NCBI RefSeq assembly: GCF_964355755.1 | Contig: NC_092678.1 | Span: forward strand, 2,565,922 to 2,629,921 | Direction of reading: 5' to 3' | From: Antedon mediterranea | Taxonomy: Eukaryota > Echinodermata > Crinoidea > Comatulida > Antedonidae | DNA length: 64,000 nucleotides | Shown: in pieces, positions 6,801-36,200 of the stretch | Layout: each line of letters begins with the position of its first letter | Position numbering within the stretch: the first letter of the stretch is position 1 | Translations under genes and position numbers: made by a program | Notes under the pieces: generated by a model | The model's input: the letters and a program-made list of their open reading frames with translations, nothing else | Databases searched by the model: none | Told to the model about the DNA's origin: nothing

Positions 6801-9800
6801 TGTATGTCTCTAGTCATATAGTGAACTCTGATTTGGCAGAATCTGGATTACCAGTTAACCAGTTAGTCTCCTTGTCACCAACCAACTTCCAAAACCTGGA
6901 AACATCAGGTCAGTTGTAACTTCACTAAAGCAAATCACATTTAGATATGCATCAAAGTCCATTGCGGTTAGTATAACAGATATGCATTATCATGGTTAGT
7001 CCACAGTCAAATAAGTACCAATTAAGTACAAAAATAAGTAATTTAGGCAACACAAAATAAGTATGCATCGCACGCTACTAGTCAAGCTAGTGCTGCGGTC
7101 ATACAGTGCTGCGATCAGATAAGCTCTACAGTCAGACAGTGCTGCGGTCAGATAGGGATGTGGTCAGACAATTGCTGGATCAGACAAGCTTTACAGTTAG
7201 ACAGTGCTGTGGTCAGATAGGGATGTGGTCAGACAATTGCTGTGGTCAGATCAGCACTGTGGTCAGACAAGCGCTGTGATCAGACAATTGTTACGATCGG
7301 TTATACACATGCCAGAATGATTGTGTTATCTCAATCTCTATCACTTTATTTTATCACTTTTTTCTCTTGACAGTCGACTCTGAATTGGGTGTTGCTACTT
7401 TGCAGTTTAACAATATAGATATGTGGATCAAACCAACATCAAATATAACAGAGTAAAGTATACAATTAAACATCAGATGTATTTGTATTTATATACAGTA
7501 AATAAATGGCTTAATACATGATTAAGTAGTCGCGAAGGCTTCAAAGCTCTGTGTACACTATCAAATTAGTTTGACAAAACTGTGATGTGCCCCAATATGG
7601 TAGTAATATTCTCAAATATGGTAGTAATGACATCATGTCCATATATGGGCACATCACATTTTTTTGTCACATAAAGTTTGATAGTGTAGACAGAGCTTTA
7701 ATCATAAGTTTCTTGTACACATTTTTTGTTGTTGCAATATGATAACACATCATCCATAATTGGAGCTAATTGTGCCAATAACATTGAAGTATTCTTTATT
7801 GTGATCATGTCATGATGTTACAAACATTTTTTCAGTTTCTTGAAGAAAATAACAAATATTTATTTGTTTTTTAAATAGGTCTGGAGATTCAAACTTTACT
7901 TTGATAAATAGCAAGTTGCTATCGATAGCAACGTATCCACATCTTACAACCATATTCACTGACATTGATGTCGAGTTAAAGCTTGTCAAACTTCACAATG
8001 AGACGAATGAAGAGAAAAAGATTGAACTGCTATGTTCGTTCCTGGACATCAACCAAACAAAGTGTGTTTGATTTAATCACGCAAGTAATATACTTTACTG
8101 TTTCAGGAATAAGGCCAGACTGAGGTATCAACCCTTTTTAAAGTATATAAGCCTCGCTTCATACAATTTGGAATTGAATATTAAGTTACCCACTTGCCCC
8201 AACGATAGGAGTGGAGTAGAGTAAGTGTACTTATGCTATGCCTACACTTTAATTGGTGTGTTCATCACAGTGCCAACAAAAAAATGTGCACAAGAAACTG
8301 ATGATTAAAGCTCTGTCTACACTATCAAACTTCATGTGACAACAAAATGTGATGTGCCCATTTATGGACATGATGATGTCATATTATTACCATATTCGGG
8401 CATGTCACACTTTTTTAATCAAACTAGTTTGGTAGTGTTAGGCCTCATATTGCTTATGATTTTGATTTCCAAAATTGTTTAACTGCTTGGCAATGTTCGT
8501 AATTACACCTCTCTTCTTGACACCCCACTCTTCCAATCCAATACTATAACATTGATTATAAAATGGTTTGCATTGCAAGGTCTTCTGAGAATTTGTGGTC
8601 TCAACGTGGCTGTCATTTAATCAATTCTGACGGGCTCTATATCTTGTGTAAGTGTAATCATCTCACAGCATTTGGTGTCTTGATGCGAGTCACTGATGTC
8701 CCGGTAAGTAACATACGTTTTGATGATTAGGTATAATATTTGATTATTTAGTTCTTGACTTTATACCCATTTGAACTAATATCCAGGGGACAGCCTTGAG
8801 GGGACAGCCTTGAGGGGACAGCCTTGAGGGGACAGCCTTGAGGGGACTAGTAAATGCAAGGCAAGCTTTTTTACTTGATTCCCACTGCAATGTTTCCTGT
8901 ATACAATGAATAGAGATGTTCTAATGAACTACTTAACTGAAGAAAGATTAACTTTGTAGACATTGAATTAGATGTTTCTCTCATCCATGTTCATAGCTTG
9001 TAGTGGAATTACGTTTTTAAAATTGTATACGTCCTTTAGGCACATGGATTATCAATAGTAATTTAATCTCTGTGGTAATCCCCCTAAAAGGCTGGGGCTA
9101 TTTTGTAAAACAGTTCACTGGAGTAACCCCCTAATCGTCTCAAATGGTGAACTTGGTGCACACTGTGTACACTGGACCTATGGAGTATACAATAGTCCTT
9201 ATCTGAGAAGACTTGAGACAGCCTTAAACCCATGCCAAAGTTGTTGGACAGACATATACACTCACATTACCAAAACTATTGCCTTACCTATGATAATATA
9301 CATGCATTATTTTATGTGTTTGTTTCTAACAGATGGATCCAATACATGAGGAAATACTGAGCTGGATCACTACTGTGTGTTGCTACCTGTCACTCACTTG
9401 TCTTCTGGCTGCATTTGTCATATTTGTCTTATTCAGGTAAAAACTGTAGGCCTACTGGTGGCAACATTTTATTATGTATAATTTGTTGCAATGTATATAA
9501 AGGTGGTCACAATTCAATCTTATTTATTACTTATTAAATGAGAACCTCTTGTTCCAATCTCAAATTCAAATTGATTATAACTTAAGGCTGTCCTGTACAC
9601 CGTTAAAGACCCCTCCCTACAATTTGTGACGTTTTGTAAAAATAATACATATATATTACTTTAAAAACATTAAACCAGGTCATTCCTTGTCTTAAATGTA
9701 CGTTGTATGGTAAATTATGATAAAAAGTGAGAAACAATGCACTACCTAAGTAGCTCGCGGCGAATGACCTCTGGTGGATGGTCTTTAGGCCTAGCCTAGC

Positions 9801-12800
9801 TAGGCTTAGTTTTGTAGGCCTAGCTGGTAAACATCGGTAACGTACGAACATCGTACGCTAGCTATATACCTAGCCTGACGTTGTATAGTTGCTGCATTAT
9901 TTGTCTTTCTATATTTGCCAGACTCCGTAGATACAAATTGTGGAAAGACCGGTATTTTTGCTGAAAAGTTAGGAATCTTCCATTTGCTTTGGCCTCACGA
10001 TCGATCAAAAAGAAGGAAGAAACACAAAAATATCAATCCGCGCGAAAAAATTTATCGCAATAGGACCATATATTATTATTTTTACATTAAATATAGTTTG
10101 TGATCTTAAATTAGATCTAAAAAACGTAGGAAAGGGGTCTCTAATTTGCGCCATACAAAACCAATCTTCTTTATGGAGGAAGAGTGGAAAATGATTTTTA
10201 AAGTTAAAGAAAGTTTATTTCATTCTTTTTTGAATGAATTACCAACTAAAAATTAAACAGGAGGTAGCATTTTGTGTTGCCCTTAAATTTAACAGGAGGT
10301 AGCATTTTGTGTTGCCCTTAAATTTAACAGGAGGTAGCATTTTGTGTTGCCCTTAAATTGAAAAAAGCACTAGCGTGAATGTCACAAAATAATTATAAGA
10401 ATAGGATTAAATTCTTCAAATAGTTTATAACAATTTTTCAGAAATTTACTTGGAGATCAGTTTATTATTCACAAAAACTTGATAGCATCTTTATTTTGTG
10501 CTCAACTTCTTTATGTCACCGGAATAGGAGCAACAAATAATGAGGTATGTTTATGTGTTCATTTGTTTTTAAAAGATAATTTGTGCTTCGCACAAATGAA
10601 CCATAGTCAGACAAATATTTTAATTCTGGCCCTGCTTAATTTGTACCAAATTTATGAAAATATTTGTCATTAATATGTTAACTTGCTTATGTATGTTTAC
10701 CAAATGCCAGATAACCTGATAAGGAACTGATTTGATGAGAAGGCATGGTGTCCAAGTAAGGGGTCCAATAAAGCGGACCAAGGGATTTTCAGTACAAAGA
10801 CTAGAGACATTTGCTGAGATATAAATGTTAGTTAATGGTCTCATTGCAGATAGTGTGTAAATTGATTGCGATTTCTTTACATTTCTTTTACACTGTGTCA
10901 TTTTGCTGGATGCTCATTGAGGGTGTTAACTTGTATTTTAAGTTGGTAAAAGTTTTCAATAACAACAACAGGTTTCCTTACTACTACATCATTGGATGGG
11001 GTAAGTCAATGTAGAATATTTGTGTTGTCCTGAAATTCCACTCTGTTGATATTCTTTGTTCAGCTAATGTGGTCTATACAAACTTTAATTAACGCAATTG
11101 CATCATCTCTAGATAATGTCCTGAGATTCCATTATCATACGAGGTAGATTAAAATTAATATGTCATGTAACGCAAAAAAGTGAGTGAAGTAAAACTGTTT
11201 ATGGCCAACGTCTCGTCGTGAACGACAATGTCAATTAGTTTTACATTCATCTGAATGATGGATGAAACTAAGCCAGGACTGATTAAAGCACCTTGATTGG
11301 TTCTAACATTGATCAAAGGCTTCTCTTGTCCAGTGCCCACCTTGACCAGAGGAAAGGCATGGGCCAATACGTCTGAGGCAGATACTAGATGCAGGGGCTG
11401 CCATAAGATTTCAAATGCCTACCGGGACCCCAGCTCCACCAGCACCCGATATTCTCCCATCCAAGCTCATAACCAGGTCCAACATTGCTTAACTTTGGTA
11501 ATCTGACAAGAACCGTTGTTCCAACATAAAGTAAACTATGCTTAAAGTAAATATACTATATATTTACAGTTCAAATGAAAAACCAGAAATTATTAAAACG
11601 GACAGAATAAAAATGTGCAAGTGTTCGGTTCAAAATCTTTTATTAGTCTAGTTAATTTTTAGGATAAAGTAATTGGGAACATTAATGTGCATGTAATTTC
11701 TTACAAAGGCAAAAAAAAAATTATACTAAAAACAACAACCTAAAAAAATAATAATGTTTTTGGCCGGACCGATTTTGCTGTGACATATACACCAGTTTTT
11801 ATATATGATTTTAAAGATTCTGATTTAATTTTTCCAGATACTATAAAGTTTTGATTTTAATAATATTAAACATGTTAGCATACTCTAATTTCATTAACAT
11901 AAGTATAATTTTTAAACATATAACTAGTTATGTATTGACCCTGGAATTTTGTGCTACAAATTCACCTGATTCAATAACTTATGACGTTGCTATACAACCA
12001 TCTAAGTTTAATAATACATCTATACTCCTTTCTGCTTTGTTTAATAATTGAATATTTTAACACTGTTATCTTTATCAGCTACTGCTATCATTTGTGGTCT
12101 GTTGGAAATTACAGTGATTCCAGCTGGATTTTTTAGTGCATCATTAAAATCATTTATTCGTTTTAAGAAGATACCATTTCTGTCAAATAACTGCAGTTTA
12201 TTCATACTGGATATTATTATGTTTTCATTCATGTCCGTTACTATAGCACAAGGATACAAAACATTTCCATCTTCTTTACCTTTATTTACAAGAATTTTAA
12301 CTAAAGTACCATTTGCATCAAACACTTGTATTCTATGATGACTACGGTCAGTAACCATTAAATGACCACCTCTGGTTAAAGTGATATCATATGGATGGAA
12401 TTTACCTGCACCCTGGAATCCTATCTTACCCAACATGCTGCCATCCTCAACATTAAATTTACAAACACAATGAAGGTGAATGTCTGCAACATACAGAACT
12501 TCATTTTTTACCTTCAAACCCATCGGCCATTCTAATATTCCCTTACCAAATTGAGTATGCTCTTCAAATTTATTATTAAGCATCACAACCATCTTTCTTT
12601 GTATATCACTGTACACAATGTGACCATTACCCATGTTATGCATTCTACTGATCATGGCATTTTGTGCCAGTTTGATATTGGCAACAAATTCACCTGATTT
12701 GGTAAACTTCAATAACTCATTGCAGTCACTTGATACTAATAAACAACCATCTGAGTCTAACACTCCATCTGATATTTTGTATTCAATATGTTTGTGTGCT

Positions 12801-15800
12801 GCAATGGTTTGTACTAGTCCTATTGGTTCTACTTTGATTTTCACTGGTGTTCCTTTAAAGTGTGCTACTCCAGCAGTGACCTCCATCTTCCAGTCACCTA
12901 CCTTATCACATCTTCCTTTTATTCTGTACTCTCCATTTCCCATGTCTTCTACCTCAGTGGCAGTTTTTTCACCTGATGGAGTTATCAGAGTAGCAGCTAC
13001 TTTACATGTATCATTTTTATCCAGACATTCTGCTTTCACTACAAATGTTTGTTCCTTTGATACTGTAATGGATCTATCATCTTTGTCAAGGATGAACCTG
13101 TTATCAACACTTGCGATTTCACCAAGGCCTTTTGTTAGCGCATCATCCAGTTCGATATTAAATGTGAAGTTTGGTTTGAGATTATTTCCACAAGATGAGT
13201 ATCTGGAATTCATTTCCTTTATGTTTTGGTTGACTGCATGGATATTTGTATTGATATCATCAAGTGTTTTTGTCTTTTCTGGTTTGTTCATTGTTTCTAA
13301 ACTTGACCTCTTCAGACTTTGCACTTCCATTTGATGTGATTCTAGCTCTTTCACTTGACCTTCGATGGCATCATTCCTTTGCTTACATACATCTTCAAGA
13401 TCCAACAATAGTTTTTTTGTTTCTTCTTCAACTTTAGAAACAATAGTTTCTTTATGCATGTTAATAACATCTCTGATCATCTTTACATGTGATTCAAAGT
13501 CTGCTTTGTCATCCATTATAGAATGAAATGTATTCTCTAATTCCTGTTTGACATCTTCAGCTGACCTGATCACTTCTGTTACTTGTTTGTTAAATGCTTC
13601 TATAGCATCACTCATTCCTATCATATCATGATGATCTTTATAACAGCTCATAACGCATTTCTTACATACACTTTTTGTACAAGTTGTACAAAATCTTTCT
13701 ACTGTGTTATCTGGATGGTCTTGGCAACAAGTACCTTTTACTTCTTGACTTGACATCTGTAAAATACAGTATGCAAATACGGTTCTGGTTTTAATTAACA
13801 GGCCCATTAACAGGGTGTGGGGAGAGGGAGGGGTTCAAGGGGTTCGAACAAACCCCACCATTTGCTAGCTGGCTGTGCTTGGCAAAAAAATAATAGAGAA
13901 AAAAGAATAAAAAGCAATTAAAAAGAAAAAGTTAATTAGATATTTAAAAAATGTAAGAAAGCACAGAGGAGTATAAAGTAGAGGGGAGAATTGAGGCCCC
14001 GTCTGCCTATAGAGTGTCTGAGTACATTTGAAAAATTGTAGTTTGTGTCCACAATCACTTTTATTTGCACCCTAAACTAAATAACAATGTTAAATATAGT
14101 TTATTTACCTTATTTCTTGAATGTCTTCTTCTTGCATAGACAACATACACTATGGGCACGGTGGCTTCACAATGAATGACGTTGCATTTAGTACTTCCTT
14201 TATTATCAACAATAGGACTTCCTGATATACTATGACATGCCAGTACGGTCATAATTATATCTAGTTTATAATCATTACACAAAACTACCTATCAAGTATA
14301 TTACCATAATTTTTAGGGCCGACCTTGATAATTCTTTTACAACTGGTTATTTAGTAATTTATTATATTTTTTATAGATTTGAAATAAAAATAACCTTATG
14401 AAGGACATCTGTAATTTAGACCTAGATATAGTTTACATAGCACTTACATCATGTTTTCCCATCAAGTCATCTGGAAGATTTTTAAAACCCAACATATTGT
14501 ACTACAAAACAAATAAATATATATGTACAAAAGCATTGATATATCAATGGCCATGGTGTTTTACTCACTGAGATAGCCGTTATTTTTTAAATACATTATG
14601 ATCCAAGGATAGCTGTAATTAATTAAAACTTCATTGATGCGATCAGTCAATACTTTTGTTCGGCTGCCGAAACTAAACACTGTTTGAATTTGGTGGCTCG
14701 GCAAATGTCAATCTTCAGATAAGGTTATACAATGTTATGTTGAGAATATTTAGAAATACACGCGCAACAAAATTCGTGGAAAGAAAAAAGAATAAGATAG
14801 AAGAAAAAAAAGATCCTGACAATAACAAGTGGTTATACACCAATGGCGGATAACCAATAATTGTTTGTGAATGCAATACAACCACCATTTTTACTAGTTC
14901 AAACTAAAATTGCAAATACTGTTATTTTTGTAGCCTTTTGATATTGAACATCTAATCAAAATAGATAGGTTGAGTTAAAATGAAATGAATTACTCCAAGT
15001 AGCAAGGAAAGGTTAGACAACTTTACCTTATTTTGTTCTTCTTGTCCAGTGCCCACCTTGACCAGAGGAAAGGCATGGGCCAATACGTCTGAGGCAGATA
15101 CTAGATGCAAGGGCTGCAATAAGAGTCAGCAGTGCTGATTTCAAATGCCTAGCGGGACCCCAGCTCCATATACAGCACACGATATTCCCAGATGGTCTCC
15201 CATCAAAGTTCTAAACAGGCCCAACATTGCTTAACTTCGGTGATCTGACGAGAACCGGTGTTCCAACGTGAAGTGTGCTTAAAGTAAAATATACTAAATA
15301 TTACAGTTCAAACGAAAAACCAGAGATTATTAAAATGGGCAGAATAAAAATGTGCAAGAAACATAAATGGGTGTTCAGTTCAAAATCTTTTATTAGTCTA
15401 GTTAATTTGTAGGATAAAGTAAATTAGGAAAATTAAGGTGCGTGTAATTTCTTACAAAGGAAAAAAAAATATGATCAACAACTTAAAAAAATAATAATGT
15501 TTTTGGTAGGACCGATTTTGCCGTGACATATACACAAGTTTCACATTTAATTTTTTCAGATACTATAAAGTTTTGATTTTAATAATATTAAACATGTTAG
15601 CATACTCTAATTACATTAACATAAGTATAATTTTTAAACATATAACTAGTTGTGTATTGACCCTGGAATTTTGTGCCAATTTTATATTGGCTACAAATTC
15701 AGCTGAATCAGTAACTTATTACGTTGCCTAATATACCACCATCTGATTCTACATCTGTACTCCTTTCTGCTTTGTTTAATAATTTAATATTTTAACACTG

Positions 15801-18800
15801 CTATCTTTATCAGCTACTGCTATGGTTTGTGGTCTATTAAAAATTACAGTGATTCCAGTTGGATACTTTAGTCCATCATCAAAATCATCTATTCGTTTTA
15901 AGAAGATACGATTTCTATCAAATAACTGCAGTTTATTCATACTGGATATTATTATGTTTTCATCCATGTCCGTTACTATAGCACAAGGATAGAAAACATT
16001 TCCATCTTCTTTGCCTTCACTTGCAAGTGTTTTAACAAAAGTACCATTTGCATCAAACACTTGTATTCTATGATTACGACGGTTAGTAACCATTAAATGA
16101 CCACCTCTGGTTAAAGTGATATCATGAGGATGGAATTGACCTGCGCCCTTGAATTCTATCTTACTCAACAGGCTGCCATCCTCAACATTAAATTTACAAA
16201 CACAATGAAGGTGAATGTCTGCAACGTACAGAACTTCATTTTTTACCTTCAAACCCATCGGCCATTCTAATATTCCCTTACCAAATTGAGTGGATTCTTT
16301 AAATTTATCATTAAGCATCACAACAATCTGTCTTCCTGTATCACTGTACACAATGTGACCATTACCCATGTTATGCATGCTACTGACCATGGCATCTTGT
16401 GCCAATTCAATATTGGCAACAAATTCACCCGATTTGGAAAACTTTAATAACTCATTACAATAGCTTGATACTAATATACAACCATCTGAGTCTAACACTA
16501 CATCTGATATTTTATGTTCCTTATTATCTACTCTGTGTACATTTATGTTATCAATGGTATGTACAAGTCCTATTGGTTCTACTTTGATCTTCACTGGTGA
16601 ACCTTTAAAGTGTGCTACTCCAGCAGTGATCTCCATCTTCCAATTACCTTCCTTATCACATCTTCCTTTTATTCTATACTCTCCACTTCCAATGTCTTCT
16701 ACCTCCATGTTAGTTTTTTCACCTGATGGAGTTATCAGAGTAGCAGCTACTTTACATGTATCACTTTTATCCAGACTTTCTGCTTTAACTTAAAGTTTAC
16801 TTTGTTAGTTTAATGGATCTATCATCTTTGTTAATGATGAACCTGTTATCAACACTTGTGATTTCACCAAGGCCTTTTGTGAGAGCATCATCCAGGTCTG
16901 TATTAAATCTAAAGTTTGGTTTAAGATTGGTTGTGCAAGATAAAAATATGGAATTCATTTTCTTGACGTTTTGTTTTACTGCATTGATATCAGTCTTGAT
17001 ATCATTAAATGTTTTCGTCTTCTCTGGTTGGTTCATTGTTTCTGAACTTGACGTCTTCAGACTTTGCACTTCCATTTGGTGTGATTCTAGCTCTTTCACT
17101 TGACCTTTAATGGCCTCATTCTTTTGCTTACATACATTTTCAAGATCCAACAATAGTTGTTTCGTTTCTTCTTCAATCTTAGAAACAATGGTTTCTTTAT
17201 GCATATTAATAACATCTCTGATCATCTTTACATGAGATTCAAAGTCTGCTTTGTCGTCCATTATAGAATGAAATGTATTCTCTAATTCTTGCTTGATATC
17301 TTCAGCTGACCTGATCACTTTAGTTACTTGTTTGTTAAATGCATCTATAGCAATACTCATTCCTATCATATCATGATCTTCTTTATAACAACTCATAAGA
17401 CATTTCTTACATATTGATTAAGTAATATATTCAAGCAAAGAAAAGTTATACCATATATTTGAATATTAAATAATATTTAACAAGTTAATTTTATTCATAT
17501 ATTTTAATGAAAATAACTTTCAATTATACCTACAGTATAAGTAATTTAATCAAACCAGAGGAAGCTTATAAACAATGTCATATAGTGTATTAATCTTATA
17601 CTTAAGAAATAATAACAAAGCAAATGAATAATAAATTCATTCATTCTGAAGACTCTATTTTATTATTTATTAATTATGAAAATTGATGGTTCATTAAAAT
17701 TATAGTAATTTCATATGTTTTAGAAATAGAATATTTTAACATTGTTATCTTTATAATCAAATACTGCTATTGTTTGTGGTCTGTTAGAAATTACAATGAT
17801 TCTAAATGGATATTTTAGCCCATCATCATCAGTATCTATTCGTTTCAAGAAAACACCATTTTTGTCAAATAATTGTACTTTATTATCACTGGATACTATT
17901 ATATTTTCATCCTTGTCCGTTTCTATAGCACAGGGGTGGATAACTTTCCCATCGTTCGGACCTTTACTTACAAGTGTTTTTGTAAAGGTGCCATTTGCAT
18001 TGATCATTTGGATTCTACTACTACTCCATTCAGTAACCAGTAAATGTCCTTCCCTGGTTAAAGTCACATCATTTGGGCAATCAACGTCATTTCTATTCTC
18101 TAAAAATATCTTACCCAATAGACTACCACCATCAATATCAAATTTACAAACACAATTAGCTTTAATATCTACAACATACAAAACTTGTGTTTTATTGTTT
18201 ACTGTCAAACCTAGTGGACGTTTCAATATTTTTTTACCAAATTGCATACACTCTTCAAATTTATCATTAAGCATCACAACAATATTCCTTTGCCTATCAC
18301 TGTACACAATATGACCATTACCCATGCTATGCATTTTACTAACCTTGGCATTTTCTGCCAGTTTAATATTGGCAACAAATTTACCTGATTTGGTAAACTT
18401 CAATAACTCATTACAGTCACTTGATACTAATATACAACTATCGGAGTTGAACACTACATCTGATACCCCATACCAGATTTGTTTGTGTGTTGCTATTTTA
18501 ATGTTATCTATAAGTCCAAGTGGTTCAACTTTGATATTCACTGGTGAACCTTTAAAGTGTGCTACTCCAGCAGTGATCTCCATCTTCCAGTCACCTTCCT
18601 TATCACATCTTCCTTTTATTCTATACTCTCCACTTCCCATGTGTTCTACCTCTGTGGCAGTTTGTTTACCTGATGGAGTTATCAGAGTAGCAGCTACTTT
18701 ACATGTATCACTTTTATCCAGACTTTCTGCTTTCACTTCAAATGTTTGTCCCTTTGATACTGTAATGGATCTATCATCTTTTTCAATGATGAACCTGTTA

Positions 18801-21800
18801 TCAACACTTGTGATTTCACCAAGGCCTTTTGTTAGAGCATCATCCAGGTCTGAATTAAATGTCACGTTTGGTTTAAGATTATTTGCACAAGATAAATATT
18901 GGGAATTCATTTCCTTTACATTTTTTTTAACTTCATTGATATTTGTATTGAAATCATCAAGTGTTTTTGTTTTTTCTGGTTGGTTCATCGTTTCTGAACT
19001 TGACCTCTTCAGACTTTGCAATTCCATTTGGTGTGATTCTAGCTCTTTCACTTGACCTTCAATGGCATCATTCTTTTGCTTGCATACATTTCCAAGATCC
19101 AACAATAGTTTTTTGGTTTCTTCTTCAACTTTAGAAACAATAGTTTCTTTATGCATTTTAATAACTTCTTTGATCTTCTTTACATGTGATTCAAAGTCTG
19201 CTTTGTCGTCCATTATAGAATGAAATGTATTTTCTAATTCTTGCTTGATATCTTCAGCTGACCTGATCACTTCAGTTACTTGTTTGTTAAATGCATCTAT
19301 AGCATCACTCATTGTTAAGATGTCATGGTGGTCTTTATAACAACTCATAATGCATCTCTTACATACTCTTTTAGTACAAGTTGTACAAAATCTTTCTACT
19401 GTGTTATCTGGATGGTCTTGGCAACAAGTACCTTGCACTTCTTGACTTGACATCTGTAACATTACAAAAGAATGCAAACAATTAATTTTACATTGTGAAG
19501 TATTAGTAAAATTTATGATTTCCTAATTTTAACTAATATTTAATTACATCTAATTATTATACGAAACTTAGAATAGGCCTACAACTTACCTTATTTCCGA
19601 TCCTTACCTTCACAGACAATATTCAGTTAGCGATATAAGTGCGATTTACAATTGATATTTTTGTGTGGTATGCTGACTTCTTTCAAAGTATATACAAATT
19701 ACCAAAGCATAAAAAGATTTCTCATCCGTAAAATTTGAACTTCTAATAGATGAATAGATTGTTTAACTGTTATTGCATACAACAACAATAGTGAAATCAT
19801 TGAGGAAACAAAATATAATATAGCCTATGCCTACTGTAGGCTTGCTGTTTCAGCAATCGTTTCATTCTCCTTTTCTTACTTTACATTTATTTTAAATAAT
19901 TTTGAAGCGGATTACAAATGCAGACTTCAAACATGCAATTTATTACCATTATGTTATAGGCGTCACTTTGTCTTATTTCTTTTTAAGTTATTCAATTCTA
20001 ATTTAATTATTACTGACAATTTATTTAATATTTGTAATCCACATGTTACTTGTAGCTCTTCTTCTGTTGATACTCTTTTTGAAATTTGTTGCTGCAGAAC
20101 AGATTGTTCTTTTCAATCATATATCCCACGTGTTACCAGAATTTGGAATAACTTTACCCGGTGAAATTTGTACCCTATAGATATATCTCAGAAACATCTA
20201 CAAAACAATGCGCCGACTGAATAAATGTTACGGTTCAGTCTGCCAATTTACAAATATTCTCTTCCAGCCCTGGACGTCTATAACGTTATATGGATATTTT
20301 TTTACGATGAAATGGGATCTCAATTTTAATTTAATGGCAGAAAAAACATTTAGTCCTGTATGATGATGTCATGATGATCTTTAAAACAACTTGTAATACA
20401 TTTCTTGTATACACTTATAACAGAATTTATTTTATGGATATTTTTCCCCATAGTGAAAAAAATGTAAATAATCAACCAATTATTAAACCAAATTGTCAGT
20501 AAATAATAATGGTCATACTTGCAGATTCAGCAATGCTTTGTTTGCTAAATATTCTTTATGACATCGGATCAATTGGTTGGGATTCGGTTCCCCCTTCAAT
20601 ATATGGGTTGAATGACTATGTTTTTAAAGATTTTCAGTGGGTAGTGCGTCTCACGTTTGGTACTGTATTATTTGTTGATTCCAACTATACCTCAATGTGT
20701 GACAGATATTTAGTATACAAATAATGAATGAAGAACAGGAAGCAGGCCATTAAAAAGGCAGTGCTCCAACTTTAGATGCAGAGTAGAACAGTTATAGACT
20801 GCGCACACAACACATACTTTTATTTCTGAACTTGATCAGTCAACAATATTGTTTGTTGTCTGTCCATCAATAATGTGTCTGTAGTAATACGGGATATTAC
20901 AGGGCATGGTCGGATGTCACAAAAAGAAACGGCAAAGCACTGTTGGGTTCATATGATTTTATTTGAATACCAAGAAATACAGCAAAACGAAAAAAAAATA
21001 CCTTTTTCTGAGGCTTAATGAACGTTGTTCAGTCAATCAGATCTCAAGATAAACTGACGAAATTTAGGATAAAACTGTCACAACTGGACACAAACATAGC
21101 CCCACAGAACTTAGGAACTTCCTGTTTGTGTGTTAATTGGTCACCATAGTCCATTTCAACTTTTGCCATGGACAAACACTGATTGATTTAATGTTACTGA
21201 TAATTAAGAAAACAGTCCGAACACTTTACTTTAATGAAAATATTACTTCGCAGGTTCCATACTTTGAACTTAACAATTAAATTGCAGTCATTTGGGTACT
21301 GTTAATGATTAAAACACACATATTCTTTTAAATCGTGATTCAGTCAATTATAGTTTTTAAAAGGAGCTTACACCTGTCCCTCTGTGTAAATACCAAAGTC
21401 ACCTCATGGTTACTCTAAATATTGATTTGTAGTGTAATAATCTTTATCATTTCACTACATGTCTATTTGTTTGGAAAAAAAACAACCTAATTATCAAGGA
21501 TATCTGTTAGTTTATACCTAATATAGTTTACTATACTTGTTTTTTTATGCCATCATTCTTTTGCTTACATACATTTTCAAGATCCAACAATAGTTGTTTC
21601 GTTTCTTCTTCAATCTTAGAAACAATAGTTTCTTTATGCATGTTAATAACATCTCTGATCATCTTTACATGTGATTCAAAGTCTGCTTTGTCGTCCATTA
21701 TAGAATGAAATGTATTCTCTAATTCTTGCTTGACATCATCAGCTGACCTGATCACTTCTGTTACTTGTTTGTTGAATGCATCTATAGCATCACTCATTTC

Positions 21801-24800
21801 TATGATGTCATGATAATCTTTATAACAACTCATAAGACATTTCTTACATACTCTTTTTGTACAAGTTGTACAAAATCTTTCTACTCTGTTGTCTGGATGA
21901 GCTTCACATCCCCTACCTTGTACTAAGTTTTGACTTGACATCTGTAACATTACAACAGGATGCAAACAATTAATTTTCTGTTATGAAGTTAAATAACATT
22001 TATGGTTTCTGGCTTCAACTAATTTATATAATTACATTTTTAACTGTAATACTTAGCATACAACATACAGTACCTTGTTTTAAATGTAATTACTGCTGAA
22101 GCTTTAATACAATTTAAATCTTACCTTCACAGACAAAATATGTTAGCAATGTTGGGTGTGAAATGCATATTTTGATATGGTATTCTAACTTCTTTTCAAA
22201 GTCTATACAAAATACCGATTTCTCATCCGTTAAGTTTGAACTTGGACATAATAGATGAATATATTGTTGAAACAGTTATTACATATGACAAATGAAATAA
22301 TTGAGGAAATAATAATTCAAATATATATATTTAGTCTTATGATTATTAGTATTATTGTGCTGTTGAATAAAAATGAGACATTAAAGTTCAGCAATTGTTG
22401 CATTCTTCTTTTCTAATTTTATATGTTGCGAAATGTCTTATGAATTCATTAATCAAAAATTTAAATCACAGGAACACTAAATTTATTTCAATTCAATATT
22501 TAACAGTTAATTATAAACAAAACAATCAGATTTATACTTTTTTAATTATTTTTTTCATGCATTTTTGTAATCCTAATAAAATAATTTTAAAGATGTATAT
22601 TGTCCCCAAAAACATGGAAAATAAACATTAATTAAATCAGACTTTGAATGTGTTATTTTGTAGTTTTGATAAATTAGTCACTTCCTTAGAAAAAAAAACG
22701 AAATGTCAAAATAAATGGTTAAATTCAACCCATTGACTGGCAGCCAATTTGACCATTTTTTACTTTAAATTACAGTTTTTTTTTCAGGTAAATACATTTT
22801 TTTGGATCCAATTTTTTGTTAAAGTGGATAACTATTATGTTACATAAAAATGTTATATTCAACAAAAATGTTGTTAAGAATTTTTTTCAGGTGGACAATA
22901 CATCTTTAAACAAACTGTATTAATTTAAATAACACAAATCATATAACATGCAGTAGGGTAACAGTAATTTCTGATTGGTCAATAAACATTATAACATCAC
23001 TGGCGTTAATGATACGACTTTTTATTTCTTAGGTATCCGTGACTGGAACAGGCTCCCCAATTCACTCAAATCAATACAAAATAATGCAACCTTCAAAATA
23101 AAACTTAAAGAATATTTTAATAATGAACAGCTTGGAATTTCAGTTTAATTAAGTTATTTTTAATATTGTTTTTTGATGTTATCTTGTCTTGTATGTATTT
23201 TCTTGTTTTTTCATTTTTACTGAGTCATACTTAATGATAATTGTACTAGGCCCAACCACTCACTTTTCAGTCATTACGGATTGGACCCCATTGGAAATAA
23301 GTTTACTTTTTTGTCGACTTAATGGGTTATTCTCTTTTATACATTGTATATTTTAACTTTTATGTATGAATATCGAATAAAATCAATCAATCAATCACTG
23401 CCTCCCAGCACCACACCGCATCCATCATTTATATATCTATATAGCCAGATATATTTGAGTTAATTATGACTGCTCTTTGAGGTTTGTTTTTGTATCATAA
23501 AAGGCCTGAACATTTTATAAATATTTTCAGATTCCAAAGCTATTGCTGTTGTTGCCTTTGGATATTCAAAATATGAAATTACATTAAATATTAAAAGATT
23601 TGAGGGTATAAATATAATAAATTATAAAAGATATACACTAAGAAAAAAGAACACCATTAAAACTATACAATTAAATAACTAACGTTATTATGATGGAACT
23701 CTGCATGTATGTTGAATACTTTTGCCACAAAATAAGTACTGTCCCTATAATACTGAATCAGAGCCATATATATAAAGAGTTACAACATTGAAAATTAGAA
23801 GCCATTTTTGTGTCAAAGAATTCGCACGCTGAGGGCGCGCGCGTCTCTTTTGTATAGCGTTTTCCTGTAGTTCCATGCATTATTTTTAGATTTTGTTGTT
23901 AATGAAATAACGCTTAGATTCCGTTTTTATTTTAGTAAATAAAGTTATTAATGGTATTAATTTGGTAACATATATATATTGTGTCTATAATAACAAAAGA
24001 ATAAATGCTAGGGCCTACATGCAAGTCAGGATACATCAAAGCATGAACCAATACAAAAAACACACAAATTCACCCCTCTTTTTATACAGTATATGGCTCT
24101 CTGTGTGTTTTTGACACAAACTTTCAGAGACTCGTTCATCATTTCATTTGTAATAATTTGCCTTTATTATTTTAATATTGTTCATACCTATTCAATATAT
24201 TAACAAATATATCCACGACACTTTATTATTTTATTTAGTCATCAAAGCATGCATTATGAATTGAAAATATTACATAATTGTTATTAATGGGACGTAGTTA
24301 TGGGATGTTTTGTTCCAAAATCAATCAATCGAACGTTATAATGTACTAGCGTACGCGCGCGCAATATTCTTTGGCGCAAGTGGTTCTGTACGCTGTGCAC
24401 GTCGATATTCCACCGTAAAATGTGCAATTACATTTTTTTTAATATAAGAAAAAGTTTAAAGTAATTTCTTGCTCCTATACTTTACATGCATTAACGGAGA
24501 CAAGTTTGACACATTTTGATCTGCATATCACGTGACTATAATCCAATGTCGTAACTCTTTATATATATGGCTCTGTACTGAATTATCATATACTGCCCTC
24601 TCCTGTTCAATAAGATATGAATAAAAGGACACAACATGCTCTTGTATAGTCTGATTATAATTGTGTATCCACAAAACACGTCCACACTCAATACATGACT
24701 TAGATAGAAACTACCACGCTGCTGTATAGTCTGATTGTCAAGTGTCCACAAAACACGTCCACACACAATACATGACTTAGAAACTACCACACTGTTGTAT

Positions 24801-27800
24801 AGTCTGATTGTCAAGTGTCCACAAAACACGTCCACACACAATACATAACTTAGAAACTACCACGCTGTTGTATAGTCTGTTTAATATTGTGTGTTTACAA
24901 AACATGTCCACACACAATACATGACTTAGAAACTAACACGCTGTTGTATAGTCTGTTTAATATTGTGTGTTTACAAAACATGTCCACACACAATACATGA
25001 CTTAGAAACTAACACGCTGTTGTATAGTCTGATTGTCAAGTGTCCACAAAACATGTCCACACACAATACATGACTTAGAAACTACCACACTGTTGTATAG
25101 TCTGATTGTCAAGTGTCCACAAAACATGTCCACACACAATACATAACTTAGAAACTACCACGCTGTTGTATAGTCTGTTTAATATTGTGTGTTTACAAAA
25201 CACGTCCACACACAATACATGACATAGAAACTAACACGCTGTTGTATAGTCTGATTGTTAAGTGTCCACAAAACACGTCCACACACAATACATGACTTAG
25301 AAACTAACACGCTGTTGTATAGTCTGATTGTTAAGTGTCCACAAAACACGTCCACACACAATACATGACTTAGAAACTAACACGCTGTTGTATAGTCTGA
25401 TTGTTAAGTGTCCACAAAACACGTCCACACACAATACATGACTTAGAAACTAACACGCTGTTGTATAGTCTGATTGTTAAGTGTCCACAAAACACGTCCA
25501 CACACAATAATAAGCAGCACATGAAATAACATTCTAAACAATGGTTATTTTGAGGTCATTTAATGTTGACTTTGCTATGACTTGATTACAATACAATACA
25601 AATCGTTTGAAAATGTTACGAGGAATACAGTAGTATGAATAAAATAGAATAGACACCTCCCTTGAATAAAGGCCCCCAAAAGACCCACCTGAACAATAAG
25701 CGTTTATTCGGTTTAAATACAGTATAGATATTGTAGTGTTCAAATAAATACAGTATAGATATAATATTGTAGTGTTCAAATAAAGTTATCATATATATGA
25801 AAGGTGAATAATTAATTATTATATTCAAATAAAGTAAAGTTAGATATATAATATTTGAATATTAAATAATATTGAGCATGTGAATTTTAATTAGGTATGA
25901 AATTTACATAAATATAACATTAATTCTCAAACATAATATAACTACAGTACAGCATGTGATTATTATTTAATTAATAAAATTTACATATAATTTATATGAA
26001 AATAGAGATTCATTAATATACAAAAGTAATTTAAATTAAATGAATATTCATCTATGAAGTTTGCATGCTTATAACTACAGTATTACATACTTCCATAAAT
26101 ACATACTATCAACAAGTAACTTAATAAAGAAATAAAAACCGTACCGTACATAATATTTTTATAAAAAAAATGATAGTGATTTGTGTAGACAATTTTAGTA
26201 ATTAAATATTTTAACATTGTTAACATCGAAATCAGCTACTGCTATCGTTTGTGGTCTGTTAGAAATTACAGAGATTCCAATAGGATATTTTAGTCCATCA
26301 TCAGCAGTATCTATTCGTTTTAGGAAAACACCATTTTTGTCAAATAATTGTAGTTTTTTCCCACTGGATACTATAATGTTTTTATTCATGTCTGTTACTA
26401 TAGCATGAGGATACTTAACTTTCCCATCTTCTTCACCTTCATTTACAAGTGTTTCAAAGATACCATTTTCATTTAATATTTGTATTCTATGTTTATTACG
26501 ATCATTAACAATTACACGACCTTTCCCTGATAAAGAGACAGCACTTCTGGATTTCTTTTCACCTGTACTCTGTAAGACAATCTTATCCAACAGCATACCA
26601 TCCAAAATGTCAAACTTCCAAACACAATGAGCAGTACCATCTGCAACATACAGAACTTGTGTTTCATTGTTTACCGTCAACCCCAGTGGCCATTTTAATA
26701 TTCCTTTACCAAATTGAGTGCACTCTTCCAATTTATCATTAAGCATTACAACAATAAGTCTTCCTACATCACTATACACAATGTGACCATTACCCATGTT
26801 ATGCATTCTACTGACCTCAGCATTTCGTGCCAATTGAATGTTGGCAACAAATTCACCTGATTTGGTAAATTTCATCAACTCATTACAATAGTTTGATAGT
26901 AATAAACAACCATTGGAGTCCAATACAACATCTGATACTGCAAATCTTCTTCTATACACTGCTATGCCAATGGTATGTACAAGTCCTAGAGGTTCCACTT
27001 TGATCTTCACTGGTGAACCTTTAAAGTGTGTTACTCCAGCAGTGATCTCCATCTTCCAATCCCCTTCCTTATCACATCTTCCTTTTATTCTATACTTTCT
27101 ACTTCCCATGTCTTCTACCTCAGTGGCAGTTTTTTTACCTGATGGAGTTATCAGAGTAGCAGCTACTTTACATGTATCACTTTTATCCAGACTTTTTGCT
27201 TTCACTTCAAATGTTTGTCCCTTTGATACTGTAATGAATCTATCATCTTCATCAATGATGAACCTACTATCAACACTTGTGATTTCACCAAGGCCTTTTG
27301 TTAGAGCATCATCCAGGTCTGTATTAAATGTGACGTTTGGTTTGAGATTTTTTGCAAAAGATGAATATCTGGAATTCATTTCCTTGGTATTTGTTTTAGC
27401 CCCATTGATATCTGACTTGAAATCATCAAGTGTTTTTGTCTTTTCTGGTTGGTCCATCGTTTCTGAACTTGACCTCTTTAGACTTTGCACTTCCATTTGG
27501 TGTGATTCTAGCTCTTTCACTTGACTTTCAATGCCATCATTCTTTTGCTTACATACATTTTCAAGATCCAACAAGAGTTTTTTGCTTTCTTCTTCAACTT
27601 TAGAAATAATAGTTTCTTTATGTGTTTTAATAATGTCTCGGATCATGCTTACATGTGATTCAAAGTCTGCTTTGTCGTCCATTATAGAATGAAAAGTATT
27701 TTCTAATTCTTGTTTGACATCTTCAGCTGACGTGATCACTTGAGCTACCTGTTTGTTAAATGCATCTATAGCATCACTCATTGCTATTATGTTATGGTGA

Positions 27801-30800
27801 TCTTTATAACAACTCATAACATTTTTCTTGCATACAATTTTAGTACAAGTTGTACAAAACCTGTCTGCTTCAGTTACTTGTTTTTTTGATATATCAGTGT
27901 CCCGCACTTGTGTAGTAGTATGTTGTGCTCTAAGACAAGTCATAAAACATATTGTACATAAGGTTTTGTTACAAGTTGTACAAAATCTTTCTGCTTTGTT
28001 GTCAGGATGGTCTTTGCATCTAGTAGCTTGCACTTTTTTACTTGATGATCTGTAAATTACAAATTGATTCAAACATGTCATGTGTAGTTAGTTTATAATT
28101 GACAGTCTTTGGTTTTCAATCTTAGGTATAAATTGTTTAATGTTTTACACATTAACTTAGTTAGATGATTGCCTAATTGTTTCTGCATATTTCCTGGCAT
28201 ATTTTTCTTTTAATACTTTGTTACTATTTCAATTTAAAATTTGAAATCATTGCATTTAATTTTATGTTCAAAATATATAATTTAACTTATTAATAATTAA
28301 AAAACAAATTGTAGTTATAAGTTTGGACAAGATTAGATAACTATACTGTACTAGGTTATGTTTAATACTAACCTTGATTTGGTCCTCATAATAGTCCTAC
28401 CGTTATGATTATGTTGGGACAGCTGACAATGTATACATTTATAGGGTAATAGGGTACAGAGTGCAATATTTTATGTTCATAATTTTGACAAACAAATGTT
28501 GTCAAAACAAATAGCAATCAAACAGCATTTATGATTTGAGTTATAACTTTGTGTACTAATATTCCAAGTTGATACTTCCCCACCAACACTTACAATCAAG
28601 GGTGAACTCTAAATGAACTCTAAAATCTTTTTATTGCTGTTTTATTATCTTATTAACTTATTACAACTTCATATGTTTATTCACATACTGAAAAAACTTA
28701 TTTTTATTGTTTAGCAAACTTATTTTGATGATTAATGACCCCTTAATGACCCCTTAATGACCCTTAATGACCCCTTAATGACCCCTTAATGACCCTGTCA
28801 ATGTGCAATTAAAATTTGAAAAAAAGAACAATGTATAAAGTTCATATAATTGCATCACTGTAAAAGTAATACCAACATTTTTATATTATATTTTTAAGGT
28901 TATTAACTAATTAATTAATTTTGAATTTTAAACTTGACAATTTTAAAAAGTTCCATTTACAAAGACAAAATTATGCATTTTTTAAAATACTAAATAGGTA
29001 TGCCTATTATACTGGTTGGAACTTCACTTGGAATTGCTTATGATGGCTATGGGACAGCTGAATAGTAAGTATACACAATAAGGTATACAATAATGCATGC
29101 ATCCAAAAACTATGAAACAGATTAAATTATTGAAATTAAATATATACCGTATTTATTTGAATAAATGCCCCGGGTGTTTTTTTTGTTAAAGGTGGTTTAT
29201 TGAAGGGCCATATATTTGGGGAGGCATTTAATTTTTTGAATGTATGGTAAGACGTATAATGAAACATATACCCTAATATTAAAAAAAACAAGAAATGCTT
29301 GGTAAATTGTAGATCATGTCAATCAATGAATTCTACTACAAGTAGAAATTATTTGTTGTAAAATAACTTGTGTAACTTGTGTATATGCAAGTGGCAGGGC
29401 ATTTGTTTGAGGAAAAAATTAAATTCCATGGGACGTTTATTCGAGTAGGGCGGAATTTATTATAATGTTCTGTGGGGAGAATTTTGAAGGGGCCTTTATT
29501 CAAAGCTGGCAATTTATTTGAATAAATACTGTAACTTTCTTAATTCATATTGTATTTTCTATTATGGTTTTCTAATAACTTGTGTTAAAATTACTAGAAT
29601 TTGGGATGTGTCCAATCTGTGGGTAATAAAGATGGAAGTTTGCAACTTCATAGTCAGGTCGACCTTGAATAGTTATGGCTAAGGTTAACTATTGAATTAA
29701 TGTACATAATGTTGTTATTGATACTTTAATTTTTTTTTACTTTTACTTTTTAGTTGCTGGTTATCAACAGACATACGCTGGTTTTTCGTCGGGCCTGTAT
29801 TGGTTGTGATTGTAGTAAGTGATACACGAGGGAGTGTATTAATTTAATAAGATTCATATTGCATGTGTACAGTGCAATTGACAACTACTCTAGCTGTACT
29901 ATCACAATGATGACAACTACTCTAGCTGTACTATCACAATGATGACAACTACTCTAGCTGTACTATCACAATGATACATGTATCATTTTGGCTGACCAAA
30001 TCTAGTACTACCCCTGCATCAACATGACATGCTGTATAAAAGAACAAAGAGACATAGTTCTTTACATAAATCAGAAGTTTGATTATTGTTTGGCGATTTT
30101 CTTGTCTTGTCAAATCAATATTTGTTTGTTTATTTATTTCAGATAAACACTGGGATTTTGATTCTAGTTATTAAAATTATCATTCAATCTTCAATAAATC
30201 TGCCAAAAGTAAAAAACAAGGATGGCTCGCCCAAGTTCAGGTAACTTTTCTAAAACCTTTCATAGTAATAACTTCAGCATTTTTATTTTAAATGTTCAAA
30301 TAATAACTATAAAGCTCAGAATCTGTTGCCTGACTAGACTACTGCATTCTCTAGAAATGTTTATTTGTTTTTCTTGATGTATATAAAATAGAACATTAAC
30401 TCATTAGATTTATTATCTGCTGTAACTCTGTTATTTCTTTCCAGCTCCATTAGCATAAAATTATTTTTCATCATGTGCAGTTCTATTTTAATATTTTTTC
30501 TTTCCAGCTCCATTAGATCTGGCATAAAGGGATCCGTCATTTTATTACCAATTCTTGGAGCAACATGGATATTTGGAACCTTGTCGCTCAACTCTGATCT
30601 CTTAGTGTTTGAATATTTGTTTGCAGTTTTAAACAGTCTACAAGGCGTATTTATTTTCTTGTTTTATTGTGCTCTGAATTCAGATGTAAGTATTTTTGTA
30701 TTTAAAAGTTTGTGTATGTTTGAGGGAGCTAGTGTTGCTTACCCCAATGTATCTTATGCACTTTGTGTACAAATAAATCGTTTTCAATAAAAGAGGCCAT

Positions 30801-32294: not shown

Positions 32295-33254
32295 GTTTGG
32301 AAGAATTAATAAAAAAAACACTATAAAGAAAAAACATGTTCTAAATAGCAAAGAACTGCAGTTGGTTTGTTTGAGCTAATGTATAATTTATCTCAAAGAA
32401 AAATGTGCAATACCTAAAGTTCTTTTCTCTGACCAGATTGAATGACACACTTTGCGTTTACATACTGCCTGCTCGTAATACTACTCGGCAAGCGTGTGCT
32501 TTGAGGAAACTTGGAAGGATATGGATTGCACTCAGATTAAGATATGTCAAATAGTTTGTAGCTGAGAGCATTAATTTGTGGAAATTCTTTCTGCTGTAGC
32601 TTTTTATTCAAATTAATCTTTACCTCTTATTAGGGTTCTCTGGTTGGCAAAAGTTTCACTCAAACCACTAAATCCCACTCTCTATGGAACAAATTAAGTT
32701 ATTGACAAGAGTATTCAAGTAAGAAGTTGTTATGGTAAGCAGGATACTTAGATTTTTACTTTTTGCAGCAAAAAATATTTTGATTTTACTCTTCTGATAA
32801 ATTAAATATCTTTAAAGACTCAATTAGTAGCATCTCCTTTAAACATTAAAAATGTAAGACATATATATTTTTCCATTATTTCTAGTAAGTTTAGCTACTT
32901 GCACTTATTGTTTTTGTGAATTAACTTTTTCTAAACAATTAAACTTGAAAACAAGTTAAAGCTACAAAACGTTGATTTTGATATTTTTGTAGGTAGAAGA
33001 TGTGAGATATTTTGTGAACAAAATAATGAAAATTAGAATTTGAATTTTATGTGCATTTATTTACTGAAATAAATATGGTACAGAAACATGTCGTATTGTT
33101 ATTTTCTGTCAAACTATTGACATACTATAAAAATGTTTTGGTTTACTTAATGTATTTTGGTAATAAAGTATTTATATTTTGTTTCCATTGACAATAATTC
33201 AAACCCCATAGTTTCATCCAAAAGAAGATCTCTTATTTCTTTGTCTCTTGTTAT
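32295..33254. other. Convergent 3' ends of the GPCR and INTS13
   Basis: Likely GPCR 3' UTR. Candidate poly(A) signals are AATAAA near 33069 and 33163. No other gene seen; the two genes are tail-to-tail about 960 bp apart. Confidence 0.5.
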
Positions 33255-36200
33255 TCATTTTCCATTCTCGTCCTTTTTCAAATGAGTATATAGTTCTGTT
33301 TTGTTATTTACAGCTTCTAGTCTCCCTGCAAACTCTTCGTGCCTCATTGTGTTGACTGCTTTAATCCGGCTACTCCATAGTGACAGTAAGGAGACCGGCC
33401 CACCTTAAATAATAAGATAAATAAAAGATAATTCTTTATTGTCATGTATTACCAAATAACTTGAGTTTAAATAATCCACATAAACAACTCTTTATCATTA
33501 AGTCTTGATTTTCAATCATTAATCACGACATCAATAAAGCGAATTTAAAAAATGCACAAAATATGAATACCTTTTTGTCTGTCCCTGCTTTCATCTTTTG
33601 ATATCCTAAGTTTCTTTATTGGCGGTGCGCCCTCGGTTGTCCTTGAATCAGCACTCGATAAGTAGTCCTGTTTTTCTCGATGTGTCATACTTTGCAATCT
33701 GGATTTAAAAAAATGTTTAACAATTATTTTTATAATTACATTTTATGATTTCATTTTCTACTGCACACTTATTAAATATCAAGTTCTTACTTATCTAAGT
33801 CTTTCCACGCCTTTTCTGTTTCACTGGTTTTATCTGTTCCCTTTGCCGTCGTCTTGTCCGACCCTTTCTTTGCATTGCAATCGTTACTCACTGGTTTACA
33901 ATCGTGTAAGCAGTCAAGTACTTGTTTGTGTTCAGGTGATGTGCTACTGTAGGCTTTGAGCAACGACTCTAGCTCCGCCCACATTTGCCTGTAATGTTCT
34001 TCCCTGATGAAGTAAAGTGGAGCTTTATCAAAAATTTCATGCATAACATCTAGATTTAATTGTGGAGTAGGTTTGCGTCAGAGTGTTTTTTTTTCGCAAG
34101 TATTCTCAATGTACTTGATGTATAAAGTACAAATTACGTCAGAGTAGGGAAAACATCTGACCAATTTACATAATTGGCTCAACTGCACTGTGGTGTTTAG
34201 TATTACTGTAGTATTCATAATAAAACTCACTTTTTGGGAGCTTTGCCCCTAATACCTGGTGGTAACGGTAAGGGATCACCCTTTGCTTCGATCCCAACCA
34301 AGTGAAATATGGCTTTCTTGCACTGTGTTACATCTTCCTCATCCAGGCAAAGTTTAGCAATTATTGTTGGTATTGGGTCTATGTGCTGAAAGATAAAATG
34401 TAGACAAGTTCAACTGACGGATCATACATATATCAAATCTGTACACTGATTACAGGTAGTAAAGTGTAAAGAAATACTAACCGATGCCATGTTGAATATG
34501 ATAGTATCGCTAATTACCATTGGCCAATGTCTAGTTTGTCTTTCTAGCTGTGTTTTGGCTGTAAGATACAAATTATGCTTATGAAGAATGAATGAATTAA
34601 AGAGTAACTTATTTGTTGTTAAGTGTGAGATAGTCATTGCATCTTTATCATCTGTTTTGGCTAGTTGGGTTGGTATAATTAATGTATCGTAGATGAGTAC
34701 ATTGCTTGTAAGGGCTATATTAATTTTATATTTGTAATGTGGAATGGATACCCTTTGAAATTGGCACTTCCTTTTCTTGATCGTCTGTAATAGTGAAAGG
34801 TGCAAGGCGGTTGTCTTTCATAAACTCGCCAAAATCTGTGATTCTGTAATCGGTCACTCTCCCACCACAACCTTCACTGATCGACGGCGGATCTTCAAGA
34901 TACGATCGGGAAGTTGATAGGCAGTGGATAAAGATTTCTCCACCATGACTCGTAAGCATATGTGACATGACCTTTGCCCCAGGTTTGCGAGGTTGTTCAA
35001 GCATGACCTGACGACCATTGAGGAGGAAGTTTGTCAGACATAATGAAGGCCTGCTATTCACCTACCAAAAAGATATTTGAACATTATTAATTTCATATTA
35101 TGGTATTATTTAAATATATTGTCATACAGTTGATGTACAGTGCATGATAAAAACATTTGGAAGTATTCCTAAATGAAAATTTGTCCGAAAATATATTGTG
35201 ATAAGAAATTAACTTATTTTATTTTGTGGATACTCACATCAACTGGTGAAATTCTATAGGCACCTGTACAGTAAAGTAATTCTAAAAAAAAAAAAGATAA
35301 AATATTGTAATGTTTTGGCTTTCACTGTCACTGCAAATTTAACATGAAACCATTCAATGAGCTCATAGCCTCTTTAAATCACTAAAGATAAGAACTGTCA
35401 CAATATACAGTAAGAAGTAACAAGAACATTTATTGCATGCATGGCTGCAGTGGATCTATTGTATTACAACTAACCATTTGACATTCCTCTTGGTGAACAC
35501 CATTTCAGTAAGATGTTGTTCTCCTCCTGACTCAGTAATTTATGACCAGCATCACCGCTGGATGAAGGACTTTGAGAAGTGTTCTTGCGAACCTCCTTGT
35601 GGCCGTCCTTATGATGTAGTAATTCTACGTCATAGTTGGCTGAGCTACTAGAATTCTGCTCTTCCTGTTGGGTAAATAACAAGTAAAACGTTAGCATGTA
35701 TTTGAATATATTAATATAATAAAATATAATAATTAATACAGTATGTGAAATTAAGGATCAATTATGGAAGCAGGTTTTATTTGTCTTCAACCTAAATCAG
35801 TGTCATAACAGATAAAAGCGCTTACTGGCTAAACCCAGAGAATGAGCAGCCCAAATGATCCCTAACGCAGCATTGGAGGGCGCTGTTGCTCCCCGCGTTA
35901 TGCTTACATAAGTAAAACTATTAAAACTGCAATGGGACATTAGATGTTGATTATAAAGCTGTAATTTCTTAATGAGAAATATATTATTCAATGGTATATA
36001 TTATTCAATGTTGGTATACAATTCAATGGTGTATATTAATCAATGGTATATTCAATGCTTTAAAAAGCTCATGTATTTACCTTCATTGGAATACCTGTTA
36101 TCGTTGTCATAACTAAATCATGATGCAGCTGAACTAATTTGCATAAATGACTCGCAAGATGCTGTGCAGATACCACCGATATCAACCGAAACGATAAATT

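Follow-up and report, generated by a model that had tools for sequence, protein, structure and literature searches.

An antisense, partly decayed array of TRIM-like genes inside an adhesion GPCR intron of the crinoid Antedon mediterranea

We analysed a 64,000-nucleotide (nt) stretch of the Antedon mediterranea genome (contig NC_092678.1; G000:C9:2565922-2629921; hereafter the window, whose own numbering is used below), where an unusually long intron of an adhesion G protein-coupled receptor (GPCR) gene holds an array of TRIM-like genes on the opposite strand. The receptor gene occupies the plus strand, where 23 exons with GT-AG borders (3054-32295) join as a single open frame without internal stop; read in either of the two remaining frames, the chain is interrupted by 70 or 95 stops. 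Exons 1-14 (3054-3296, 3523-3804, 4308-4484, 4958-5260, 5667-5861, 6177-6337, 6523-6625, 6798-6908, 7374-7452, 7879-8061, 8107-8220, 8580-8703, 9333-9436 and 10442-10544; together 3054-10544) encode TSP1 repeats, the GPS and transmembrane helices TM1-TM2. Exon 15 (10850-11000) encodes TM3 and the start of TM4, ending with ...IIGW/G in phase 1 (slash, splice junction), exon 16 (28998-29064) takes up TM4 with G/MPIILVG..., and exons 17-23 (29754-29814, 30143-30240, 30508-30685, 30867-30926, 31272-31422, 31890-31978 and 32226-32295; together 29754-32295) supply TM5-TM7, the tail and the stop. No signal-peptide exon or exons were found in this exon chain at the 5' end of the gene.

The receptor gave Pfam matches over the cut-offs to TSP_1 (two stretches), GPS (E 4.9e-8) and 7tm_2 (E 1.7e-57); it thus has both the GPS motif and the secretin-like seven-transmembrane (7TM) domain by which adhesion GPCRs are recognised. 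Its best PDB sequence match is ADGRD1 (8x9s, E 4e-71), followed by ADGRL3, and the ADGRD1 alignment runs as a single stretch (query 650-954) across the TM3/TM4 junction. We assign the predicted protein as an ADGRD1/ADGRL-like adhesion GPCR, giving no exact subfamily: GPS and 7TM are common to it and to ADGRD1/ADGRL, but unlike these it has an ectodomain with TSP1 repeats. Adhesion GPCRs cleave themselves at the GPS and are activated through a tethered agonist, and by analogy this receptor would act in the same way.

All nested copies lie on the minus strand inside intron 15, antisense to the receptor, and exons 15 and 16 flank them all in one frame. T1 (12041-13756) is an intact coding exon for a B-box/coiled-coil/filamin-like/NHL protein of 571 amino acids (aa) plus stop, beginning MSSQEV..., and T3 (17720-19453) is an intact coding exon of 577 aa plus stop. 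T5 (26195-28081) is an open frame of 628 aa from an ATG at 28081, but has lost the ATG at the homologous place and has its B-box region partly duplicated; T5 also has an N where the other copies compared have a cysteine, likely a zinc ligand. T2 (15776-17414) is a pseudogene, split between two frames (16800-17414 and 15779-16789) with stops and lacking the first ~25-30 residues; T4 (21531-21941) is a 5' fragment with the B-box and part of the coiled coil, reaching a stop after ~136 residues; and a 54-nt remnant of the B-box region (20363-20416) is 85% identical to T4. T2 is a tandem duplicate of T1 that includes the 3' flank (15040-17413 against 11324-13668, 86%), and the T1/T2 and T3/T4 duplications both take in flanks. 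Over matched parts T1, T2, T4 and T5 have 67-82% protein identity to T3, so the presence of TRIM-like genes here is not due to chance.

The initial annotation had placed five TRIM-like genes, each with its coding region in one exon, within an intron (11001-28997) between the TM3 and TM4 exons of one receptor. The intron stands, with its GT and AG edges, phase 1 and one frame over all 23 exons, as does the single gene spanning it, given the unbroken ADGRD1 match across the junction; the minus-strand array of B-box/coiled-coil/filamin-like/NHL coding exons, from a lineage-expanded family, was likewise recovered. There are indeed several antisense copies, but five intact genes there are not: the tally is two intact copies (T1 and T3), one open frame without the usual start (T5, doubtful as a gene), one split pseudogene, one 5' fragment and one remnant. 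A coding region in one exon is what we read for T1 and T3.

Upstream of the coding exons, a splice acceptor (TTACAG or TTGCAG) stands directly 5' of the ATG in 10 of the 14 rows examined, which implies an intron in the 5' untranslated region (UTR). The four rows without this combination are T2 (start misplaced), T5 (acceptor kept, ATG lost) and two RING-type rows. Candidate 5' UTR exons could be placed on the minus strand for T3, at approximately 19608-19742 (exon start not fixed; donor CTGTGAAG/GTAAGG), and for T4, at approximately 22125-22255 (donor CTGTGAAG/GTAAGA), so that a donor-like CTGTGAAG/GTAAG upstream is common to both. Patches of 5' flank are also common to T3, T4 and a copy on contig 5, C5:6516539.

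Five proteins were scanned against Pfam (T1, T3, T5 and the two halves of T2; matches at E<=0.001). NHL exceeded its cut-off in four of them (T1, the C-terminal half of T2, T3 and T5), and a filamin match fell below the curated cut-off in four of the five (E 2.9e-5 to 7.6e-4). Only T5 gave zf-B_box (25.4 bits against a cut-off of 24.1); T1 and T3 had no B-box match at that threshold yet align over the same C/H positions, which makes a weak case for a B-box in these two. The scan gave no RING match in T1, T2, T3 or T5, whereas the same tool detects RING in a relative elsewhere in the genome (L007), whose 722-aa open reading frame has RING, two B-box stretches and NHL. Given B-box, coiled-coil, putative filamin-like and NHL parts and no RING match, we call the nested copies TRIM-like rather than TRIM. 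RING may have been lost in the clade of the nested copies or gained by the L007 type, loss being the simpler reading. We saw no sign of a RING hidden in an upstream exon; for T3, the one copy to which this applies, an in-frame TGA precedes the ATG in the candidate 5' UTR exon. A structure model of T3 had a mean predicted local distance difference test (pLDDT) score of 63.6 and a predicted template modelling (pTM) score of 0.51, with the NHL part mostly above 80 and the N-terminal half poor; its NHL fold matches TRIM3 (Z 33.6) and TRIM2 (Z 33.2), within a range of Z 32.3-33.6 for TRIM3, TRIM2 and TRIM71. We expect T1 and T3 to have no ligase activity themselves and to act as coiled-coil scaffolds or modulators, with target binding by the NHL propeller.

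The length of the host intron, rather than its position, is what stands out. Intron 15 (11001-28997, plus strand) measures 17,997 nt, ~18 times the next largest, the remaining 21 receptor introns being of 45-1,005 nt. A position unique to this receptor was rejected, since two of ten paralogous 7TM loci read, L015 (398 nt) and L018 (124 nt), are interrupted by an intron at this codon, in the same phase; the other eight have TM3 and TM4 in a single exon. TRIM-like stretches make up 7.4 kb of the intron, and together with a ~818-nt element and a 73-nt tandem repeat account for 9.1 of its 18.0 kb. The element (23759-24576, between T4 and T5) has 32-nt terminal inverted repeats and at least 39 other genomic copies at 94-100% identity, one of them truncated (40 of 4419 candidates scored), and by these features is a recently active short DNA transposon. 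The tandem repeat (24633-25509) has 11.8 copies and also shows a higher-order period of 222.

A protein search of the 354-Mb genome (18 contigs) gave at least 81 matched stretches of the TRIM-like family, or at least ~75 copies after merging six split ones and counting those in the window; these counts are lower bounds, the search having missed T4. Copies lie on contigs 2, 3, 4, 5, 6, 7, 9 and 10. By-eye comparison of the matches listed turned up no second array of the family flanked on both sides by 7TM matches within 100 kb. On contig 10 (G000:C10:15437295-15465274) three TRIM-like copies follow, at a distance of ~5 kb and on the same strand, a 7tm_2 match within an open frame of 1279 aa, as neighbours and not as a nest as far as seen. 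On contig 7 (G000:C7:25523888-25603552) five NHL-region matches are spaced at ~15-33 kb, four with identical scores, and the series looks like recent amplification of a large unit.

Copies far apart have exchanged sequence. T1 and C9:5464034, 2.9 Mb away, are 86% identical over 1.7 kb and share 355 identical nt at codons 82-200. The block has no change against a synonymous divergence (dS) of 0.30 in the rest of this pair, and among the six copies compared each of the 14 remaining pairs has 32-91 differing sites in it; a perfect 355-nt block in genes only 86% alike overall argues for exchange between loci. The trees conflict: by NHL (24 rows) the sister of T3 is the contig-5 copy (100/99) and that of T1 is T2 (100/100), whereas the coiled coil (14 rows) pairs T1 with C9:5464034 (100/99); filamin (24 rows) leaves the nested copies unresolved. 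None of the three supports the nested copies as a single clade. Before C9:5464034 (L002:13-582; G000:C9:5459012 on) lies a death-effector-domain match (E 4.9e-7) that is below the cut-off.

The contig-5 copy itself proved to be nested. C5:6516539 (plus strand; locus L001), 77% identical to T3, is flanked by minus-strand TPR exons: host exon A ends ...SVRAYLYR in phase 2 at ACAG/GTAAGA, exon B starts after TTATCAG, and the two exons, once joined, keep an open frame and re-establish the 34-residue TPR period, with the copy in antisense inside the intervening 5,412-nt intron. T3's sister in the NHL tree is thus a second, newly recognised nest, predicted from the exon sequences to lie antisense in an intron of a TPR-repeat gene on another contig of chromosome size; the host is presumably TTC6-like, Pfam giving just TPR. 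That a close relative nests antisense in an unrelated host suggests that nesting follows the dispersing family and not the receptor. General nesting of the family is not supported by present counts: of nine loci surveyed besides the window (L001, L002, L003, L004/L029, L005, L006, L021, L022 and L023) only L001 was nested, and no further nest was seen at the eight others. Two of these (L005 and L023) read as intergenic, with coding-like frames on opposite strands either side; Pfam backs one side of each, by Ras and BTB to the right of L005 and by SRCR on the left in L023. The other six (L002, L003, L004/L029, L006, L021 and L022) gave no clear reading. These counts are weak, because the exon finder had a small training set and overlooks short exons.

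Ratios of nonsynonymous to synonymous substitution (dN/dS) among the copies ranged from 0.29 to 0.68 (33 pairwise values), with domain means over seven copies of 0.38 for the B-box, 0.54 for the coiled coil, 0.51 for filamin and 0.62 for NHL. Four sliding windows, at T3 residue starts 211, 226, 451 and 541, had mean dN/dS above 1, in two filamin windows because dS is very low there (0.06-0.09); we claim no positive selection from these sliding-window values. In neutral simulations at 0.125 substitutions per site and lineage the frame stayed open in 0 of 5,000 runs for T1, 0 of 5,000 for T3 and 1 of 5,000 for T5, and at 0.06 substitutions per site ~1% stayed open. The open frames of T1 and T3 speak for past constraint, though open frames and a lowered apparent divergence may also result from conversion.

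The reading that we prefer, and hold to be quite probable together with the history and function that we propose for it, is chance nesting of a dispersing, converting TRIM-like family in an adhesion GPCR intron. A receptor that had the TM3/TM4 intron would have received an antisense DNA copy of a RING-less TRIM-like gene; local duplication with flanks would then have produced an array of at least five copies, of which two or three stayed open and the rest decayed, and growth of the array would have helped swell the intron to 18 kb, while the coding exons kept exchanging sequence with relatives elsewhere. The nested genes would most likely be separate minus-strand transcription units with a 5' UTR intron, and ordinary splicing would remove the 18-kb intron from the receptor transcript. 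What we say of expression, of RNA splicing, of the function of the proteins and of the absence of selected host-nest regulation is inferred from sequence. Several observations weigh against this account. A dN/dS of 0.54 between T1 and T3 is not strong constraint, and conversion from functional copies could hold both open without present function. The intron position, absent from eight of the ten paralogous loci, could be of any age. Unlinked copies resemble each other in DNA almost only over the coding exon; the similarity gives out close to the acceptor at one end and the stop at the other, save for the 5' patches of T3, T4 and the contig-5 copy and some dispersed repeats, as expected if exchange were confined to that exon or if the flanks had long diverged. 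Dispersal may therefore have gone by plain DNA duplication, or by copying with later conversion limited to the exon.

The exon-limited similarity, with the coding region in a single exon, would also fit spread by retroposition of mRNA. That explanation has little to commend it when intronic acceptor sequence is kept before the ATG, 3' flank is common to T1 and T2, and patches of 5' flank recur in T3, T4 and the contig-5 copy; for copies with such common intronic flank, retroposition is refuted. We also think it unlikely that the whole array is dead, with T1 and T3 open only through conversion from functional copies. The decay of T2, T4 and the remnant, the missing start of T5 and the T1 block identical to a copy elsewhere would all suit a dead array, but that block covers only 118 of the 571 T1 codons, T1 and T3 retain acceptor, start codon and stop codon with an uninterrupted full-length frame, and no neutral simulation at the observed divergence left either frame open. 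That the receptor halves are not one gene, through an assembly misjoin or as separate TM1-3 and TM4-7 genes, might be suspected from an intron ~18 times longer than the next, and is extremely unlikely: exons 15 and 16 agree in frame and phase, the junction residues continue the 7TM match in a single stretch, two paralogues have short introns at the same position, and duplicated copies, transposon and tandem repeat together account for about half of the intron.

The nested genes might instead be kept in the intron by selection since their transcription, or double-stranded RNA (dsRNA) formed with the receptor pre-mRNA, tunes the output of receptor or TRIM-like genes. Both nests are antisense, and nested genes can interfere with their hosts via intron retention, exonization or cryptic polyadenylation, as set out in PMC3192792; such selection nevertheless strikes us as improbable. 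With related copies in two unrelated hosts, we see no host specificity, and much of the array is decayed or, in T5, doubtful. Nested genes are moreover frequently antisense anyway, as presented in PMC3786989, where the account of the tim2/2mit pair reports no functional relationship and a survey of expression in 109 human and 752 fly pairs is cited as giving nothing significant. The proposal of the initial annotation that receptor and cluster are locked together finds no footing here: with no other array having 7TM matches on both sides among those listed, and T3's closest NHL relative in a TPR gene, there is no sign of a specific receptor-TRIM pairing. Should host-nest transcription prove important, the two genes that naturally host this nested family could be compared in a controlled way. 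More speculatively, the receptor pre-mRNA could be a trans-acting antisense RNA for the TRIM-like family, with host introns as shelters for dispersal and conversion. Several family members are indeed present in intron 15 as reverse complement, with 355 nt that match the predicted message of C9:5464034 in perfect complementarity, and if the idea were true receptor transcription could dampen the whole family through dsRNA, or the reverse, but we regard it as very unlikely.

Nested genes on opposite strands were reportedly a subject of Henikoff in 1986. The window arrangement is a clear case of nested intronic genes, a class already common in animals; the second nest and the exchange between loci add interest, and a single intron lets one read how genes nested, multiplied in tandem, decayed and exchanged sequence with distant copies. 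About 6% of Drosophila genes are given as nested, often on the opposite strand (PMC3786989), and in a ctenophore nested intronic genes are put at 12.24% of exonic bases, similar to primates and some arthropods (PMC8527503). Drosophila 2mit in tim2, as described in PMC3786989 and PMC8527503, resembles the window in having a whole coding unit for an unrelated protein in one host intron on the opposite strand; the window differs from known nested genes in its tandem, partly decayed array of a large converting family and in the related copy in a second host. We found no literature naming a TRIM-like array in an adhesion-GPCR intron by title or abstract start, in a search outside which most subscription journals lie.

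The nested copies have B-box, coiled coil, NHL propeller and a putative filamin-like domain in common with TRIM-NHL proteins, but RING was not found in them and a RING-bearing relative exists in the same genome. TRIM-NHL proteins are presented in PMC3503706 as class VII or subfamily C (TRIM2, TRIM3, TRIM32, TRIM56, TRIM71 and others), and the same source treats TRIM-like genes without RING as recognised domain-loss derivatives. Such genes and the nested copies are both kin of canonical TRIMs without part of the RING/B-box signature; unlike the TRIM-like genes as PMC3503706 portrays them, the nested-copy family has tens of copies and exchanges sequence between loci. A further likeness, to the sea urchin Sp185/333 immune clusters as outlined in PMC5103432, lies in clustered similar genes, repeats and diversification by duplication.

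Directly 3' of the receptor, a minus-strand gene (33790-37623) matches Mat89Bb (Pfam PF10221) in five exon-sized frames. The Sp185/333 genes just mentioned belong to another protein family than the TRIM-like copies. Further along the window are a reverse-transcriptase fragment (49074-49382; RVT_1, E 8.1e-13) and an open frame with hexapeptide-like repeats (58690-59124; Hexapep, E 5.6e-8), where long open frames on both strands suggest a tandem repeat.

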